Shown here in pieces: positions 2,924 through 41,515 of a DNA stretch of 64,000 nucleotides. The stretch comes from Maribacter ulvicola (lineage in GTDB: Bacteria > Bacteroidota > Bacteroidia > Flavobacteriales > Flavobacteriaceae): positions 62,001-126,000 of the forward strand of contig NZ_FTMA01000002.1 in assembly GCF_900155985.1 (NCBI RefSeq), given 5' to 3'. Positions within the stretch are counted from its first letter, which is position 1. Every line of letters begins with the position of its first letter. The notes beneath the pieces are model-generated. The model ran no database searches. It saw only the letters and a program-made list of their open reading frames with translations, and had not been told where the DNA came from. The position numbers and the translations under genes were made by a program.

Positions 2924-2959
2924 GGAGGGAAATTTTAATGAAATTAAAACTTTCCTTCT
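2924..2959. terminator. Stem-loop between convergent carB and acyl-CoA ligase
   Basis: GGAAATTTTAAT (2928-2939) pairs with ATTAAAACTTTCC (2943-2955) with one bulged base, and weaker pairs extend it on both sides. It overlaps the stop codon of the convergent ligase reading frame. No clean U-tract follows on either strand, so a role in termination or 3'-end protection is only likely. Confidence 0.3.
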
Positions 2960-4570
2960 GCGTATAACTTCCTTATTTCTTTCTTGTCAAATTTACCAAC
3001 ACTTGTTTTTGGTACTTCATTAATCGTTACATATTTATCGGGAATTTGATAATTGGCAAAATCTTTGGATAAAAATTCTTTTAGTTCTTCAGAAGACACA
3101 AGTTCATTTTTATTAGCTAATACTAATGTAGCTAGAGGTCTTTCAGACCATTTTTTATCAGGTATGGAGATAACTGCGGCCTCCTTTATTTTTGGATGAG
3201 ACATTAATGCCAATTCTAGCGAGACACTGGAAATCCATTCGCCTCCACTTTTTATTAAATCTTTAGTACGATCGGTTATTTCCATATAACCGTTAGCATC
3301 AATAGTACTAACATCTCCAGTTTTAAACCAGCCATCTTCTGTGAAATTGTCTCGGCTATGGGTTTTAAAATAAGATGCAATGACCCAAGCACCTTTTACT
3401 TGTAGTTCTCCCATTGTTTTGCCATCTCGTGGCGCTATTTTTCCATCATCGCCAACAATACGCATTTCTATGCCGGGAAATTCGATTCCCTGTTTGGCAC
3501 GTATTTTAATTTGATCTTTTTGATTAAGGTTTTCGTGTTTTTTTTTGGAGTCTGCTTGCAGTTCCAAGTGGAGATGTCTCTGTCATTCCCCAAGCTTGAA
3601 CTCCTTTTATACCAAAGTCCTTTTCAAAATTTTCGATGAGACTTGCTGATAATGCTGAACCTCCTACTAAATATTCTTCTAAGGCTAATTTTTTCTTTGG
3701 TGGATTTTTTTTCATTTCCTCATAAATACCTCTCCAAATAGAAGGTACGCCGTTAGCTTTATTAATATGCTCGCTTTCTAGAATTCTAATAATAGCATTT
3801 GGTTTAAGGTGTAAAGATGGCATCACCATATCTGAACCAGTTAACAGGCACATGTACGGAAAACCCCAGGCCATAACGTGAAACTGCGGTACAATAAGAA
3901 GAATAACATCTCTATTGCTATAATTTCCGGCATTAGGGGTAAGAATGGTCATAGCATGCAAATAGGTAGACCTGTGTGAGTATAAAACCCCTTTGGGCAT
4001 ACCTGTGGTACCACTAGTATAGCACATGCCGCTGGCGTCGTTTTCTTGTAGTTCAGGCCATGCTATAGTGTCTAATTGCTCTCCTATTAAATCTTCATAA
4101 TGTATGGTATTTGGTAGTGTAGTGGTAAAACCTTTTGGGGCGTTGATAATTATGAACTTTTCAACGGTCTCTAGTTTTGGTGCAATTTTTTCCAGAAGCG
4201 GAACTAATGTAGCATCTACAAAAATGACCTTATCTTCAGCATGATTTATTATAAACTCTATTTGTTGAGATGACAACCTAATGTTTATAGTATGGCAGAC
4301 CGCCCCTATACCAGGAATTCCATAATACAATTCCACGTGCTGATAGTGGTTCCAAGCAAAGGTGCCTACCATATCACCTTTGGTGATGCCAAGTTTATTT
4401 CTCATTGCATTGGCCAATTGACAACATCTTTTGTATAGTTGACCGTATGTATATTCATGTCTGCTTCCATCGGGCAGATAAGAGATTAACTTTTTGTCAG
4501 CAAAAGCACTCCTTGCATAGTTTAATATGGTAGTAGTGGTTAGTGGGTAGTCCATTATTAATCCTTTCAT
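2944..4570 (-). pseudogene. Long/medium-chain fatty acid-CoA ligase (AlkK/FadD-like), frameshifted
   Basis: This would activate fatty acids to acyl-CoA via an acyl-adenylate. The gene is split over two frames. The 5' part (start ATG at 4570 or 4555, stop at 3524) carries the AMP-binding P-loop YTSGTTGMPKG and the GMTETSP motif. The 3' part (to 2944) carries the GDVSTID hinge region, TDRTKDLIKSGGEWIS and the catalytic-lysine segment KTSVGKFDKKE. The break lies in a run of nine T on the plus strand (3538-3546, A9 in the mRNA). Removing one A joins SRLQKK to HENLNQKD and restores a family-typical protein of about 540 residues. It is either a real disruption, a slippage-prone phase switch or an assembly error. 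No other damage is visible, so any inactivation is recent or conditional. Confidence 0.85.
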
Positions 4571-4785
4571 AAAAACATAGTTTAGGTTGAAAAAAAATGG
4601 TATTTCATTAAAAATAATCAAATTAGTGTAGTAAATCGTTAAAGTTTTAACATAAATAAGAGAGGCGTGTACGTAGCGGGTCAATAGATTAGTGGAGGTG
4701 CTTTTAGGTTAAAAAAATAATTTATCAGATAATAGACTGTAGCTCTTTATTCCTAATCTTGTTTCATTAAAAATTTAGAAGGGTA

Positions 4786-6066
4786 ATGGTGAAGCGGATT
4801 GTGACAATTGTGGTTATTTTAATGTTGTTTTTTCTAGGATTAACCTATTGGTCAATGTCAAGCACTAGTAAAACTTTTGATACATGTGAAATTTTAGGAC
4901 TATCTGATATTAAGGACATAGATTTTAATAAATATGATTCAGTATTAGTTGCTGCAAGTACATTATATGAGGGTAATAGTATTAAAAATGTCATGCAAGG
5001 CCAACAGTATAGGCAAGCTTGGTCTACACCTGTAAACGTACCTATTTTATACCTACAAGAGATTGGTGGGAATGCAAAAATTTTAGAAGAAGGGGGCGGA
5101 AAGCAGACCCATTCATTGAAATTACAAAAAGATGATGGTACCTTGTTGACCTTGCGTAGTGTCTCTAAAGATCCTTCACCACTAGTACCAAAAGTTGCCC
5201 AGATTTTAGGTTTAGAAAATATTATTGTAGATGGTATTTCTGCTCAGCACCCTTATGCGGCTTTGGTAGTAGCTCAACTTTCAGAGAAAGCTAAAGTATT
5301 GAATACCAAACCTAATTTGGTGTTTGTGCCTAAGCAGGATGAGTTGTTAAATTATAACGATAAATACGGAAACCGCCTTTTTCTTTTAGAATTTGAAACA
5401 AAGGGTAATGCAAATTGGATGGGTCTTAAAAATGTTGATTCATTGGTGGATACGGATAATCTGCAGAAGCTAAAATTAAAATATCCAGATAAAGTTGGTA
5501 TTGATGAAAATTCATTGGTAAGAGCACGGTTATTTGATTTGTTGATAGGTGATTGGGATCGTCATTCTAAACAATGGGGTTGGGCAATTGAAAATATTGG
5601 AGATTCTATACAAGCAATTCCATTGCCATGTGATCGAGATAATGCATTTTTTAATATTGAAGGTGTATTACCAGCTATTATTACGAACAATTCATTTTTA
5701 CCAGAAGTGCAATCTTTTGAAAAAGAAATTGATTTTTTACCAGGTTTGATCGCTCCCTTCGATGTTTATTTTATGAGAGATATACCCTTATCCGTATTTG
5801 AGAAAGAAGCAAGGGAATTACAATTATTATTAACAGATGAAGCTATTGAGTCTTCTTTTTCTGTTTGGTCTGATGAGATTTTTAAGTTGGATGGAAAAGA
5901 GCTAATTGCAAAAATTAAGAATAGACGAAATGCTTTACTTGATTATGCTGTTTTATTTCAGCAAGAATTGGCTAAAAGTGAAGAATTGACCGAAGCACTT
6001 AAAGGATCTGAAGATGTAAAAATGAATAATGAACAGAAAGCATGTTTTAACTGTGCCAGTGAATAG
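4786..6066 (+). CDS. Membrane-anchored/secreted protein with HipA/FAM20-like kinase motifs
   Basis: Not a named family for me. Residues 4-22 form one hydrophobic segment, probably a signal anchor, so the rest (426 aa in all) should be periplasmic. The fold signature is kinase-like: a glycine-rich GGGKQTHSLKL (103-113), LRSVSKD (123-129), then LFDLLIGDWDRHSKQW (about 249-264) and PLPCDRDNAFF (279-289). The last two resemble the catalytic LxGNxDxHxKN and metal-binding motifs of HipA and FAM20/CotH-type kinases. I recall the same GDWDRHxxQW...RDRDQ block in domains attached to Bacteroidota outer-membrane barrel proteins. The next gene starts 39 bp downstream on the same strand, so the two may be cotranscribed. 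The substrate is unknown, and kinase activity is inference from motifs. Confidence 0.75.
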   Translation: MVKRIVTIVVILMLFFLGLTYWSMSSTSKTFDTCEILGLSDIKDIDFNKYDSVLVAASTLYEGNSIKNVMQGQQYRQAWSTPVNVPILYLQEIGGNAKILEEGGGKQTHSLKLQKDDGTLLTLRSVSKDPSPLVPKVAQILGLENIIVDGISAQHPYAALVVAQLSEKAKVLNTKPNLVFVPKQDELLNYNDKYGNRLFLLEFETKGNANWMGLKNVDSLVDTDNLQKLKLKYPDKVGIDENSLVRARLFDLLIGDWDRHSKQWGWAIENIGDSIQAIPLPCDRDNAFFNIEGVLPAIITNNSFLPEVQSFEKEIDFLPGLIAPFDVYFMRDIPLSVFEKEARELQLLLTDEAIESSFSVWSDEIFKLDGKELIAKIKNRRNALLDYAVLFQQELAKSEELTEALKGSEDVKMNNEQKACFNCASE

Positions 6067-6105
6067 TTGCCGTTTTGAATATTGCAAATCAATGAACTTG
6101 AAATT

Positions 6106-7326
6106 ATGAATGAAACTATAGTAATAAAAGCTGAAAAATATATTAAAAACTTGTTATCTGAGCAGATGAACAAGAATTTTCTCTTTCATAGTCAAGGTTA
6201 TGCGAGTAAAACCTTTAGCAAAACCAAAAATATATTAGAATCTTCAAATTATGAAAGTGTTGAAATAAATAACGTGTTAATAGCTACATGGTTCATTCAT
6301 GCCGGCTTTGCTGTAGATTATGAGAATCATATAGAGGAAAGTGTGAAATTTGCTACGGCTTTCTTAAAAGAAAATAATATCTCCCAGCCCAATGTTGAGG
6401 CTATAGTTCATCTAGTAGAGAGCGCCTGGCAAAGTGATAGGCCTAAGAATGATTCTGAAGCCATTATAAAGGATGCGGGTACATGGTTTTATGCATCTGA
6501 AGACTTTGAAGAAATGCTTCAATTATTAAGGTTAGAGTTAGAAAATTTTAACGAAACAGTTCCTGATTTAGATACATGGAGATTAGAGTATGTGGAAAAG
6601 CTAAGGATAAAACATCGCTATTATACCGACTATGCCAAAGAGAACTGGCAAGAACGAAAAGAAGATAATATTCTTTCTCTGATTTCTAGATTACAGAAAG
6701 CAGAAAAAACTGAAAAGAAAGAAATATTAAAAGCAAAGTTGAAAGATGAGAGTCCGCAACGGGCCATTCAATCTTTATATCGTATAGAACTTAGAAATCA
6801 TATAAAGTTAAGTGACATTGCAGATACCAAGGCTAATATTCTACTTTCTGTAAATGCCATAATAATATCTCTTTTATTGGCAAATCTTATACCAAAACTA
6901 GATTCACCATCAAATTCTTATCTCATTTATCCTACGGTGATTTTTGTTCTATTCAGCATTGCGTCAATGATCATGTCAGTTTTAGCGACAAGACCTAAGG
7001 TAGACAATACAGATGTGGTAGAAGAAGAAATTAAGAAGAAGGATACTAATTTCTTGTTCTTTGGAAATTTCCATAGCATGGAGTTGAGCGACTTTAAATC
7101 TAAATTAAGGGATATTATAAAAAATAAAGAATCTATTTATGATTCATTGAGTATGGATTTATATTATCTAGGGAAAGTACTGCAAGAGAAGTATAGATTA
7201 TTACGGTGGACGTATACCGTGTTTCTTATTGGCGTAATATTATCTGTTATAGCATTTGGCTTTGCATTAAAGTACTACGGTATGGAAGAAGAGCTACTAG
7301 ATGCGGTAACACCGGTACCTAAATAA
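6106..7326 (+). CDS. Pycsar-effector-like membrane protein (degenerate HD domain + DUF5706)
   Basis: About 406 residues from the ATG at 6106; an in-frame TTG at 6082 is less likely. The C-terminal part (about 225-395) matches the DUF5706/Pycsar effector membrane family, with LRNHIKLSDIADTKANILLS before two membrane segments (about 250-264 and 272-294), LLFFGNFH-like NFLFFGNFHSM near 315, and a third membrane segment (366-392). In defence relatives this region is thought to damage the membrane when cyclic pyrimidine nucleotides appear. The N-terminal part aligns with the HD phosphohydrolase domain of flavobacterial homologues, but the HD pair reads IH (residues 64-65, ATWFIHAGF) and the later KDAD reads KDAG (122-125), so metal binding should be lost. 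No pyrimidine cyclase gene lies beside it. The family call is strong; a defence role is unproven. Confidence 0.82.
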   Translation: MNETIVIKAEKYIKNLLSEQMNKNFLFHSQGYASKTFSKTKNILESSNYESVEINNVLIATWFIHAGFAVDYENHIEESVKFATAFLKENNISQPNVEAIVHLVESAWQSDRPKNDSEAIIKDAGTWFYASEDFEEMLQLLRLELENFNETVPDLDTWRLEYVEKLRIKHRYYTDYAKENWQERKEDNILSLISRLQKAEKTEKKEILKAKLKDESPQRAIQSLYRIELRNHIKLSDIADTKANILLSVNAIIISLLLANLIPKLDSPSNSYLIYPTVIFVLFSIASMIMSVLATRPKVDNTDVVEEEIKKKDTNFLFFGNFHSMELSDFKSKLRDIIKNKESIYDSLSMDLYYLGKVLQEKYRLLRWTYTVFLIGVILSVIAFGFALKYYGMEEELLDAVTPVPK

Positions 7327-39661: not shown

Positions 39662-40114
39662 ATGGAGTTAAAAGTACCACCGGTTTTAGTGTTTTTATGT
39701 TTTGGATTGATGATGTTCCTATTGGCAGAGTTCCTACCTATTGGTTATTTCGATTTTTTGGGCAGATTGTTATTGGCAAAGCTCTTGATCGGTATTGGTG
39801 TTTTCACAGCGCTCTTTGCTTTAGTTCAATTTAGAAAAGTAAAAACGACCATAGATCCTTTAAACCCTGACAAGGCTTCTAATTTAGTGGTAGGCGGAAT
39901 TTTTAAATTTTCTAGAAACCCTATGTATTTAGCGTTGCTGCTTCTATTGTTGGCGCTAGGTGTTTTTTTAGGTAATGCTTTTAATATACTGATCGCTGCT
40001 GGTTTTGTAAGTTATATGAATCGATTTCAGATAATTCCTGAAGAACAAATTCTATTAGGTAAATTTGGGCGTTCCTTCAAAGATTATTGTATATTAACAA
40101 GGCGCTGGTTTTGA
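39662..40114 (+). CDS. Isoprenylcysteine carboxyl methyltransferase-like membrane protein
   Basis: A 150-residue integral membrane protein with four to five hydrophobic helices and the ICMT/PEMT C-terminal signature: GGIFKFSRNPMYLALLLLLL (about 79-98) and a late EEQILLGKFGRSFKDYC, the Glu and Arg used to bind S-adenosylmethionine. In bacteria the substrate of this family (small lipids, isoprenoids or cysteine thiols) is generally unknown. Confidence 0.85.
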   Translation: MELKVPPVLVFLCFGLMMFLLAEFLPIGYFDFLGRLLLAKLLIGIGVFTALFALVQFRKVKTTIDPLNPDKASNLVVGGIFKFSRNPMYLALLLLLLALGVFLGNAFNILIAAGFVSYMNRFQIIPEEQILLGKFGRSFKDYCILTRRWF

Positions 40115-40211
40115 GTTGATTATGCTTAATGGTATTGCTATATGTGCTAATACTTATATATATTAACTAATTAGCTTATAATTTAATATATTAGCGTTTT
40201 AAATAATAATC

Positions 40212-40817
40212 ATGATAGCTATAATTACTGGAGATATTATTAATTCTGAGAATCATCCTAGTGATCAGTGGATGGATCTATTAAAGAATTATTTAAAACA
40301 ATTTGGTGCATCGCCAATGAATTGGGAGATTTATCGCGGTGATGAATTTCAGTTAAAGCTTACCGAAAAAAATGCATTGTTCACCGCTATTCGCATAAAA
40401 GCAATGTTAAAAACTATAAAAGGTTTAGATGTAAGAATGGGTATCGGTATAGGTTTAGAGACCTATGTTGGTACAGGGGTGACTGAATCTAACGGTCCAG
40501 CATACCAGCGATCAGGACGTAATTTTGAAACACTAAAGGAGAGTAAGGTAAATCTTAGTATTGCAACCGGAGAAACAGCACATGACCGCACATTGAATTT
40601 AATGTTGCGTTTAGCTTTAAATTTTATGGATGATTGGAGCGTTGTTTCTGCAGAAATTGTAACCTTGTCCCTAGATTACCCTCATTACTCACAAAAAGAA
40701 ATTGCACAGCAGTTGGGTATAAAACAATCTGCCGTAAGTCAGCGTTTAAAAAGAGCAAGATTAGATTTAGTTTTAGATGTATTGTCCTATTACAAAGAAT
40801 TAATTACCAGTAAATAA
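40212..40817 (+). CDS. SatD-like protein: cyclase-like palm domain plus helix-turn-helix
   Basis: A 201-residue SatD-family protein. The N-terminal part reads like a nucleotidyl-cyclase palm: ITGDIINSE (Asp8), YRGDEFQLKL (Asp44, Glu45), VRMGIGIGLE (75-84 region) and GPAYQRSGRNFETLK (about 95-109). The order resembles class III cyclases or GGDEF proteins. The C-terminal part (about 159-182, SQKEIAQQLGIKQSAVSQRL) is a clear DNA-binding helix-turn-helix. The next gene, a DUF3307 membrane protein, starts 2 bp later; I recall this pairing in other Bacteroidota. SatD naming is from family memory; cyclase activity is inference. Confidence 0.8.
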   Translation: MIAIITGDIINSENHPSDQWMDLLKNYLKQFGASPMNWEIYRGDEFQLKLTEKNALFTAIRIKAMLKTIKGLDVRMGIGIGLETYVGTGVTESNGPAYQRSGRNFETLKESKVNLSIATGETAHDRTLNLMLRLALNFMDDWSVVSAEIVTLSLDYPHYSQKEIAQQLGIKQSAVSQRLKRARLDLVLDVLSYYKELITSK

Positions 40818-40819
40818 AT

Positions 40820-41515
40820 ATGTTGATTTTCATAAAACTAGTTTTAGCTCATTTAATTGGAGACTTTGTTTTACAACCTACAAGATGGGTACTTCACAAG
40901 CAAGCGAACAAGATAAAATCTAAATTTTTATACGTACATGTGTTATTGCATTTTTCATTGTACATGCTCCTTCTTTGGGATCTATCCCTTTGGAAAATAG
41001 CAGTAACGGTAACTATTGCTCATTTTTTCATTGATACACTAAAATTGTATTCAAATGAATTGTTCAAGAATAAAAGTGTTCCGTTTTTCATAGATCAAGT
41101 ATTGCATATTTTGGTCATTTATGGTTGTGTTTTTTATACCAATTTATATGCTCATACCTTATTGTTGTTCGAAAATTTAGATTGGTACTTGGTAACGGCA
41201 ATTGTATTTGTAACCTATCCGGCAGCAATTATTATGGGTATGATTTTAGAGGGGATGTCCAATCAGATAGAAACGGATCATAAATCGCTCCCCAATGCAG
41301 GTAAGTACATAGGTATTATAGAAAGATTATTTGTTCTAATCTTTATAGTACTTGGTAGATGGGAAGTTATTGGTTTGCTAATAGCTGCAAAATCTGTTTT
41401 TAGGTTTAATGATCTTAAAGAACGTAATAATAGAAAATTAACAGAGTATATTTTAATAGGAACTTTAATAAGTTTTGGGCTGGCTATCTTGGCAGGGCTT
41501 CTATATATTTCTTAA
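40820..41515 (+). CDS. DUF3307 family membrane protein
   Basis: A 231-residue polytopic protein with about five or six hydrophobic helices. The DUF3307 pattern is visible: LAHLIGDFVLQP (about 9-20), a Lys/Asn-rich loop, YVHVLLHFSLYMLL, and AHFFIDTLKLY, with conserved His and Asp residues within the membrane. The function is unknown. It is translationally linked to the SatD-like gene, so the two probably act together, the regulator sensing or controlling something at the membrane. Confidence 0.85.
   Translation: MLIFIKLVLAHLIGDFVLQPTRWVLHKQANKIKSKFLYVHVLLHFSLYMLLLWDLSLWKIAVTVTIAHFFIDTLKLYSNELFKNKSVPFFIDQVLHILVIYGCVFYTNLYAHTLLLFENLDWYLVTAIVFVTYPAAIIMGMILEGMSNQIETDHKSLPNAGKYIGIIERLFVLIFIVLGRWEVIGLLIAAKSVFRFNDLKERNNRKLTEYILIGTLISFGLAILAGLLYIS

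Follow-up and report, generated by a model that had tools for sequence, protein, structure and literature searches.

SatD as a candidate nucleotide-responsive regulator with an operator-like upstream array and a membrane protein partner

The satD locus

What might a protein that appears to join a cyclase-like domain to a DNA-binding domain do directly ahead of a gene for a membrane protein? The question is raised by satD in the window, by which we mean the whole 64,000-nucleotide stretch of the Maribacter ulvicola contig NZ_FTMA01000002.1 that was analyzed. There, satD (40212..40817, plus strand) encodes a 201-residue protein predicted to contain a palm-fold domain and a helix-turn-helix (HTH), and it lies head to tail with a gene for a 231-residue membrane protein (40820..41515, plus strand), with 2 bases between the two open reading frames. 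A PEMT-type methyltransferase gene (39662-40114), assigned by Pfam, precedes satD. Both reading frames had been located correctly in an earlier note made from the sequence alone, and all four motifs that it quoted are present in the translation. SatD belongs to the Pfam family SatD (PF16264), which it matches with an E value of 9.4e-13 and 48.7 bits against a cut-off of 29; the family name comes from Streptococcus mutans secretion and acid tolerance. The partner, defined by its reading frame, Pfam and the conservation of its neighborhood, matches DUF3307 (PF11750) with an E value of 3.5e-25.

The papers that mention satD or the SatD family do so, in their accessible parts, only in annotations or in results on expression or essentiality (PMC11323703, PMC5786311, PMC10326533). 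Among the literature matches listed, with few subscription full texts, we found no palm, nucleotide or operator function for SatD and no partner domain.

Predicted fold of SatD

The AlphaFold2 model of SatD, built on 49 sequences of which the others are 62-95% identical to the window protein, has a mean pLDDT of 87.6 and a pTM of 0.88. Its secondary structure follows the order β-α-β-β-α-β-α-β-α, succeeded by helices at residues 144-155, 161-168 and 174-200. Palm domains have this succession of strands and helices. Residue 8 falls close to where strand 1 ends, residue 44 lies between the second and third strands, and the predicted model contains the ferredoxin-like palm core of the palm-fold nucleotidyl cyclase superfamily. 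Foldseek matches to the model were modest (two reach E 0.001; best E 7e-4, TM about 0.4) and included adenylyl cyclase Ma1120 (E 7.1e-4), Csm1/Cas10, bPAC, GGDEF domains, GTP cyclohydrolase III and, at rank 20, the cUMP synthase 7r65. With VIA-align 2, the top match was GTP cyclohydrolase III (Z 11.7, 2.9 Å, 108 residues), followed by Cmr2 (Z 11.1, 6.0 Å, 153 residues), and matches were also obtained to Rv1625c (Z 10.8, 3.4 Å, 131 residues) and the DosC GGDEF domain (Z 10.8, 3.0 Å, 115 residues). The best 50 rows (Z 11.7 to 9.8), all of which we take to be palm-family proteins, comprise cyclases, GGDEF proteins, type III CRISPR complexes, GTP cyclohydrolase III and Y-family polymerases. Because rows with Z values within 1 of each other are tied, the fold alone does not single out a nearest family.

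Profile comparisons were carried out with hhalign between the palm part of a profile built from 37 SatD proteins and profiles of 30 class III cyclases and 29 GGDEF domains (one short locus was left out of the GGDEF set). The SatD palm matched the class III cyclases with a score of 36.1 (probability 75.5%, P 2.4e-5) and the GGDEF domains with a score of 29.3 (probability 42%, P 2.6e-4). The whole-protein SatD profile gave 36.7 and 29.0, respectively, and 14 canonical SatD palms matched more weakly, with scores of 27.6 (P 8.4e-4) and 23.4 (P 3.3e-3). In the controls, none of 20 column shuffles exceeded 15.1 and 15.3, respectively, reversed profiles scored between 9.7 and 13.7 (12.7-13.7 against the class III cyclases) and DUF3307 scored 13.7-14.9; the GGDEF and class III profiles, aligned directly to each other, scored 16.9. 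The alignment of SatD with the class III cyclases is colinear, pairing the strand-1 Asp with D8, the GD hairpin with G43-D44, IRIGIHSG with VRMGIGIG and GDAVNTASR with GPAYQRSGR. Thus, the motif order, which the earlier note had likened to that of class III cyclases or GGDEF domains, is retained in a colinear alignment that scores above the shuffled and reversed controls, and homology of SatD to class III cyclases is supported at the level of sequence profiles. When PDB sequences were searched with the SatD profile, HTH proteins came first and then the class III cyclase Rv1900c (profile positions 5-98, E 0.062), a match barely ahead of unrelated 14-3-3 proteins, so that this search adds little by itself.

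The C-terminal segment of SatD (residues 144-200; 40641..40811, plus strand) is predicted from a Sigma70_r4 match (E 8.4e-8) and the model helices to be an HTH resembling sigma-70 region 4, and HTH profiles match at residues 148-186. In the predicted model, SatD would therefore hold a sensory-type domain and an HTH in one chain, as HTH one-component regulators do. Structure prediction and fold search, proposed as a check when the protein was first described as a cyclase palm with a DNA-binding domain, gave a palm core and palm proteins among the best matches; together with hhalign and the HTH profiles they uphold that description. With good confidence, we assign to SatD a predicted palm of the class III cyclase/GGDEF/Cas10 superfamily (residues 1-121; 40212..40574, plus strand; model, structure matches and profile comparison) followed by an HTH.

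Conserved residues of the palm

Conservation was examined in 78 SatD proteins picked for diversity from 151 loci, with a median pairwise identity of 22%. Position 8 is Asp and position 12 is Ser in all 77 proteins with a residue there (one gap each); G43, D44 and G95 are present in 78/78 and Q47 in 75/78, and R75 is Arg in 69, with His in the other 9. D8 (codon 40233-40235, plus strand) and D44 (codon 40341-40343, plus strand) align with the two metal-binding Asp residues of class III cyclases and, from conservation and the profile alignment, are the presumed metal ligands. The places of the transition-state residues are variable: position 99, where cyclases have Asn, is V, H, T or Q in 60/78, with Asn outside the six commonest residues, and position 103, where they have Arg, is Arg in 23/78. 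Position 40, which aligns with a Lys before the GD hairpin that is presumably the purine-recognition Lys of class III cyclases, is Ile in 58/78, with Lys likewise outside the six commonest residues. The earlier note had found the cyclase-type Arg after Asn104 unclear and had cautioned that SatD might sense a nucleotide rather than act as an enzyme. Indeed, the Arg is not conserved, but Asn104 was the wrong place to look, as hhalign pairs Q99 and R103 of the window protein with the cyclase residues; the caution itself agrees with a metal Asp pair that is invariant across the 78 proteins and transition-state places that vary.

SatD shares with class III cyclases (Guanylate_cyc, PF00211), whose profile it matches better than that of GGDEF domains, the palm, the strand-1 Asp, the GD hairpin Asp, the (V/I)R-x-G-I-x-x-G strand and the Gly and helix after it. 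Unlike these cyclases, it does not conserve the Asn/Arg pair or the base Lys, and it has a C-terminal HTH, an operator-like array and a membrane partner. With GGDEF diguanylate cyclases (PF00990) it has in common the palm, an xGDEF hairpin, VIA Z values of up to 10.8 and a colinear profile match, but the GG(D/E)EF signature is not kept: the window protein reads RGDEF, the first Gly is replaced at position 42 by R in 44 and L in 29 of the 78 proteins, and the Glu place is Ser in 24/78. GTP cyclohydrolase III (MJ0145), which was compared by fold alone, is the top structural match, tied with others within 1. This enzyme hydrolyses GTP to formamidopyrimidine and, to our knowledge, has no HTH.

Judged by these alignments, selection acts strongly on the metal site of SatD but not on the accessory catalytic residues of the cyclases. 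Because the transition-state Asn and Arg are not conserved, SatD is less likely to be a standard cyclase than a nucleotide sensor or an enzyme of different chemistry, and we read the invariant metal site together with the variable catalytic places as pointing to metal-nucleotide binding without standard cyclase chemistry. SatD could instead be an active enzyme, with cyclase or other palm chemistry (for instance of the GTP cyclohydrolase III type), that signals to the membrane protein in the manner of a two-gene Pycsar-like module, the HTH setting expression only. Such an enzyme would account for the invariant Asp pair, the best structural match, the cUMP synthase among the Foldseek matches, the near-obligate membrane partner, and the correctly spaced alignment of Q99 and R103 of the window protein to the cyclase Asn and Arg. 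It is nevertheless rather unlikely given the residues found at positions 99 and 103 across the family, the missing Lys at the purine-recognition place and the lack of a PycTM match in the partner. At the other extreme, a palm that binds no nucleotide and acts only as a dimerization scaffold for the HTH would fit the unconserved transition-state residues, but the invariance of D8, S12, G43 and D44 at 22% median identity, from Bacteroidota to haloarchaea, makes this very unlikely.

The membrane partner

The gene that follows satD encodes a partner homolog in 145/151 loci or, as L248-L254 are second fetches of L081-L085, L087 and L088, in 138/144 distinct places. Four of the six loci with no adjacent partner are cut by contig ends; the other two, L201 and L213, are not so explained. 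The window partner comprises a DUF3307 domain (residues 3-111; 40826..41152, plus strand), which is the variable part, and an unannotated C-terminal membrane domain (residues 155-231; 41282..41512, plus strand), which is conserved. Specifically, E168, K191 and G214 are each found in 74 of 75 partners, R195 in 73, Y210 in 72 and R169 in 71, and the C-terminal motif pattern fits 71/73 (the broken or short L092 and L103 left out). The partners are of two kinds: 19/75 are short (<165 aa), one of them (L092) being a broken gene split over two frames (780-1409 of that locus), and the other 56 are long. No DUF3307, or any other Pfam match over the cut-off, was detected in the five short partners scanned, and DUF3307 stands in front in all five of the long kind scanned (the window, L111, L112, L114 and L116); DUF3307 therefore looks like an optional N-terminal fusion. 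Thus, the coupling of satD to a DUF3307 membrane protein that had been noted earlier holds as adjacency, but the conserved partner unit is the unannotated C-terminal membrane domain of about 75 residues, not DUF3307. This defines a membrane domain that travels with SatD.

Of 395 genomes in the phylum, SatD is present in 128 and the partner domain in 130; the two occur together in 124, against 42 expected. Related genomes are not independent, so that the hypergeometric figure for the co-occurrence overstates it. The 128 SatD genomes are those left from 149 after subtraction of 21 weak ones (best E 1.2e-6 or worse), of which the three with a listed place (G339, G411 and G095) match by the HTH only, and the 130 partner genomes include the weak G197 and the broken G257. 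Five genomes (G129, G155, G304, G439 and G442) have the partner domain with no SatD match in the same genome; a divergent or lost regulator is possible in these.

The AlphaFold2 model of the partner has a pLDDT of 75.9, with the C-terminal domain mostly below 70. No match with E <= 0.001 was returned for the model from the PDB, and the best matches among viral structures were phage DUF3307 proteins, at E 0.16 or worse. Searches of PDB sequences with the C-terminal domain gave no match up to E 1, and tblastn of the partner against phages gave none. The DUF3307 part matches the phage family PHROG 2470 (E 4e-13). Stand-alone DUF3307 proteins of 119-131 aa, which by their length are without the partner domain, occur in Ralstonia and Rhizobium phages and in a Podoviridae record.

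An operator-like array upstream of satD

The regions upstream of satD tend to contain tandem inverted repeats of ~20 bp with a period of 28-29 bp, which end right before the start codon. In Flavobacteriaceae the consensus is TATWAGC-N6-GCTWATA, and with up to 3 mismatches allowed, 2-4 copies are present in 50/50 upstreams, the window included. In the window, repeat 1 (40133..40152) is degenerate, with 3 mismatches, and lies 28 bp upstream of repeat 2 (40161..40180; 1 mismatch), and repeat 3 (40189..40208; 2 mismatches) ends 3 bases before the satD start codon; no strand is assigned to the three. The junction of repeats 2 and 3 (40174-40195) is a perfect GCTWATA-N8-TATWAGC. Across the 50 upstreams, between 1 and 8 bases separate the last copy from the ATG, and successive copies follow at steps of 28 or 29. 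The exceptions to this spacing are L016 and L017, in which a middle copy under the threshold leaves a step of 56, and a stray match in L037. Fifteen upstreams were counted with four copies, one of which (L037) includes this stray match, at -200. An operator-like array, of the kind that an HTH one-component regulator would have at its own promoter or a neighboring one, is a predicted feature of the sequence ahead of satD.

The TATWAGC motif has 178 matches, whereas 100 mononucleotide shuffles gave 3.9 on average and never more than 9, a comparison that is not independent, as the motif was read off the same upstream sequences. We also performed a motif-free test, which scores the best pair of like inverted repeats (spacer 4-9, period 26-33, ranges that were chosen after the arrays had been seen) against 60 dinucleotide shuffles. 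In this test, 48/78 satD upstreams, with haloarchaeal loci among them, beat all 60 shuffles, compared to 1/100 upstreams of other ORFs from the same loci, and at most 3/60 shuffles reached the score in 62/78 satD upstreams versus 4/100 controls. The best period was 28-29 in 71/78 satD upstreams versus 22/100 controls, and in 66/78 satD upstreams when the period was left free from 18 to 45. More than 3/60 shuffles reached the score in the other 16/78, which include L092 and L112, on a Sphingomonas insulae plasmid; no array was found ahead of satD in L112, and a further look around its preceding gene was likewise empty.

Outside the array, 45 loci of about 10 kb contain no operator-like site with <=1 mismatch, and satD is the only place in the 4.5 Mb genome with a perfect GCTWATA-N8-TATWAGC junction. 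Seven one-mismatch junctions occur in this genome, one of which is the other satD junction. Overall, the junction pattern is found in 89 places versus 69 for the control, and the single-site pattern with up to 2 mismatches in 141 places versus 98 for the reversed control, counts that do not support a wide SatD regulon. Two perfect single sites lie far from satD, at C5:1163403-1163422 and C5:1195191-1195210.

Half-sites and satD paralogs

Many other satD genes share this layout with different half-sites, among them TTGAAC, TTTAAC and GTTTCA types in less closely related Bacteroidota, TTAGCC in Vibrio, AACCC in Sphingomonas parapaucimobilis and Agrobacterium, and GTTCGG and ACAACC in haloarchaea. 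Half-site similarity correlates with HTH similarity (Mantel r 0.57, n = 52) and with palm similarity (0.62), half-site offsets with undefined correlations being passed over in the test. The partial correlation is 0.15 for the HTH given the palm (1/2000 permutations reach it) and 0.34 for the palm given the HTH; because the palm partial is the larger, shared ancestry explains much of the match between half-sites and HTH. Half-sites thus differ between clades and, by these sequence comparisons, appear in part to track the HTH. Four genomes have a pair of satD genes that differ from each other in their half-sites (G112, L106/L222; G228, L090/L215; G259, L104/L228; G267, L089/L232), as expected of insulated autoregulators. 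In a fifth such genome (G330), there is an array at L218 and none at L092, where the partner gene is split.

Is the array a set of DNA sites for SatD? We infer that SatD binds it from sequence, and half-site divergence also follows overall phylogeny; both points leave room for binding by another factor or for a role as RNA hairpins, with SatD working elsewhere. However, pair 3:16 of the stem is unpaired in 79/136 sites, 76 times as T against T, and a mid-stem position that is mostly unpaired favors DNA sites over RNA hairpins. The tie of the array to satD within the 45 loci and at the sole perfect genome junction, a period that stays constant while the sequence differs across bacteria and haloarchaea, and the different half-sites of paralogs in four genomes also run counter to this alternative, which we consider quite unlikely.

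A proposed mechanism

The computation yields a predicted palm, an HTH, an invariant Asp pair, an operator-like array and a near-obligate partner. The reading we favor, to which we give slightly better than even chances, is that SatD is an autoregulated, nucleotide-responsive one-component regulator that acts on the operator array and controls its membrane partner. The palm would probably bind a nucleotide and a divalent metal via D8 and D44, and a SatD dimer built on the palm would bind each palindrome through the HTH. Neighboring dimers would line up at 28-29 bp on two to four or more operators and cover the satD start region, a position from which SatD probably represses the satD-partner operon. 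A nucleotide signal would then alter the grip of SatD on the array and thereby change the amount of the membrane partner, in which the C-terminal domain, with its conserved charged residues, is the constant part.

According to the accessible part of one report, satD as annotated in Streptococcus pyogenes is essential in transposon studies and present in about 71% of genomes (178/249) (PMC11323703). A gene that is essential yet accessory fits a repressor of a harmful partner, and the proposed mechanism, if true, would explain the streptococcal case, as loss of the repressor would unleash the partner. It would also bring the cyclase/GGDEF/Cas10 palm into the set of domains that one-component regulators use for sensing, and it predicts the DNA that SatD targets, the gene it regulates and two residues of key importance. 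The module appears to be a new combination of parts of known kinds. More tentatively, and at less than even chances, it may represent an undescribed bacterial and archaeal signaling system in which a cyclase palm, recruited as a nucleotide sensor, acts cooperatively on a phased array and gates a dedicated membrane effector, with an operator code for each paralog, as a stress or immune switch.

Distribution and gene neighborhoods

A SatD match is present in the genome of the window and in 34/35 genomes of the same genus, the one miss being an 82% complete genome. In a set of 49 loci, the partner follows satD in 48 (L021 is cut by a contig end) and the methyltransferase gene precedes it in 48 (L029 is cut by a contig end); in L023 the methyltransferase gene is split over two frames (4456-4909). 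Thus, satD behaves like a core gene in the Maribacter lineage. SatD is also found on plasmid records from Segatella, Sphingomonas, Agrobacterium, Vibrio, Salinivibrio, Pseudoalteromonas and haloarchaea. On the Sphingomonas insulae plasmid NZ_CP048421.1 (L115, 14192-18643), a SatD-DUF3307 pair lies directly beside a Pycsar operon, which consists of a cyclase, an E2-associated Cys-rich protein and a Pycsar effector. A TIR gene is also nearby, and the search for an operator array ahead of this copy of satD was negative. In the plasmid neighborhoods of Agrobacterium and Haloplanus, genes of toxin-antitoxin or Abi type are found no more than 8 kb from satD. A clear defense set was absent from 6/9 distinct annotated plasmid neighborhoods (two with 3.5 kb flanks), a sample that leaves out two unannotated Pseudoalteromonas and three further Agrobacterium records; among the six, the Vibrio neighborhood has an Rpn-type nuclease. 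The proximity of plasmid SatD genes to defense genes is a lead. In viral contigs, 32 pattern matches to SatD included no relative, and phages gave one HTH-only match at E 0.6 and, with a second query, none.

These neighborhoods bear on whether the module is an anti-phage or addiction module, in which SatD silences a harmful membrane protein that is freed when a nucleotide signal changes. Its occurrence on plasmids, the copy beside the Pycsar operon and TIR gene, the two plasmid neighborhoods with toxin-antitoxin or Abi genes and the essentiality of the accessory streptococcal gene, as far as that report could be consulted, all suit such a role. Nevertheless, it is unlikely, as satD is carried by nearly the whole genus and occupies a single conserved position in the 49 loci, insofar as contig ends permit this to be seen; PADLOC returned weak matches to the HTH region of the window SatD (E 0.0034 and 0.011) and none to the partner; and most of the annotated plasmid neighborhoods have no clear defense set.

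Like Pycsar, the SatD module places a palm protein next to a membrane protein. Unlike Pycsar, in which a cyclase gene adjoins a PycTM-type effector, it has a different membrane protein, which gives no PycTM match, as well as an HTH and an operator-like array, and its PADLOC matches are weak and confined to the HTH region. A link to a Pycsar-like protein about 33 kb away, raised earlier as a speculation, was not borne out: no adjoining cyclase is apparent, and the one match to a class III cyclase that the genome contains lies on contig C10, not on that of satD. The protein in question (window 6082-7326, 414 aa) has a C-terminal PycTM domain (PF18967, E 2.7e-31) and resembles a Pycsar-type effector fusion standing alone; its N-terminal region gave no match over the Pfam cut-off, and no cyclase gene was apparent in the ORFs beside it. 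Elsewhere in the window, an acyl-CoA synthetase-like gene on the minus strand (2944-4684), as read from its translations, is divided into two overlapping frames (3524-4684 and 2944-3567), which may reflect a frameshift or a sequencing error.
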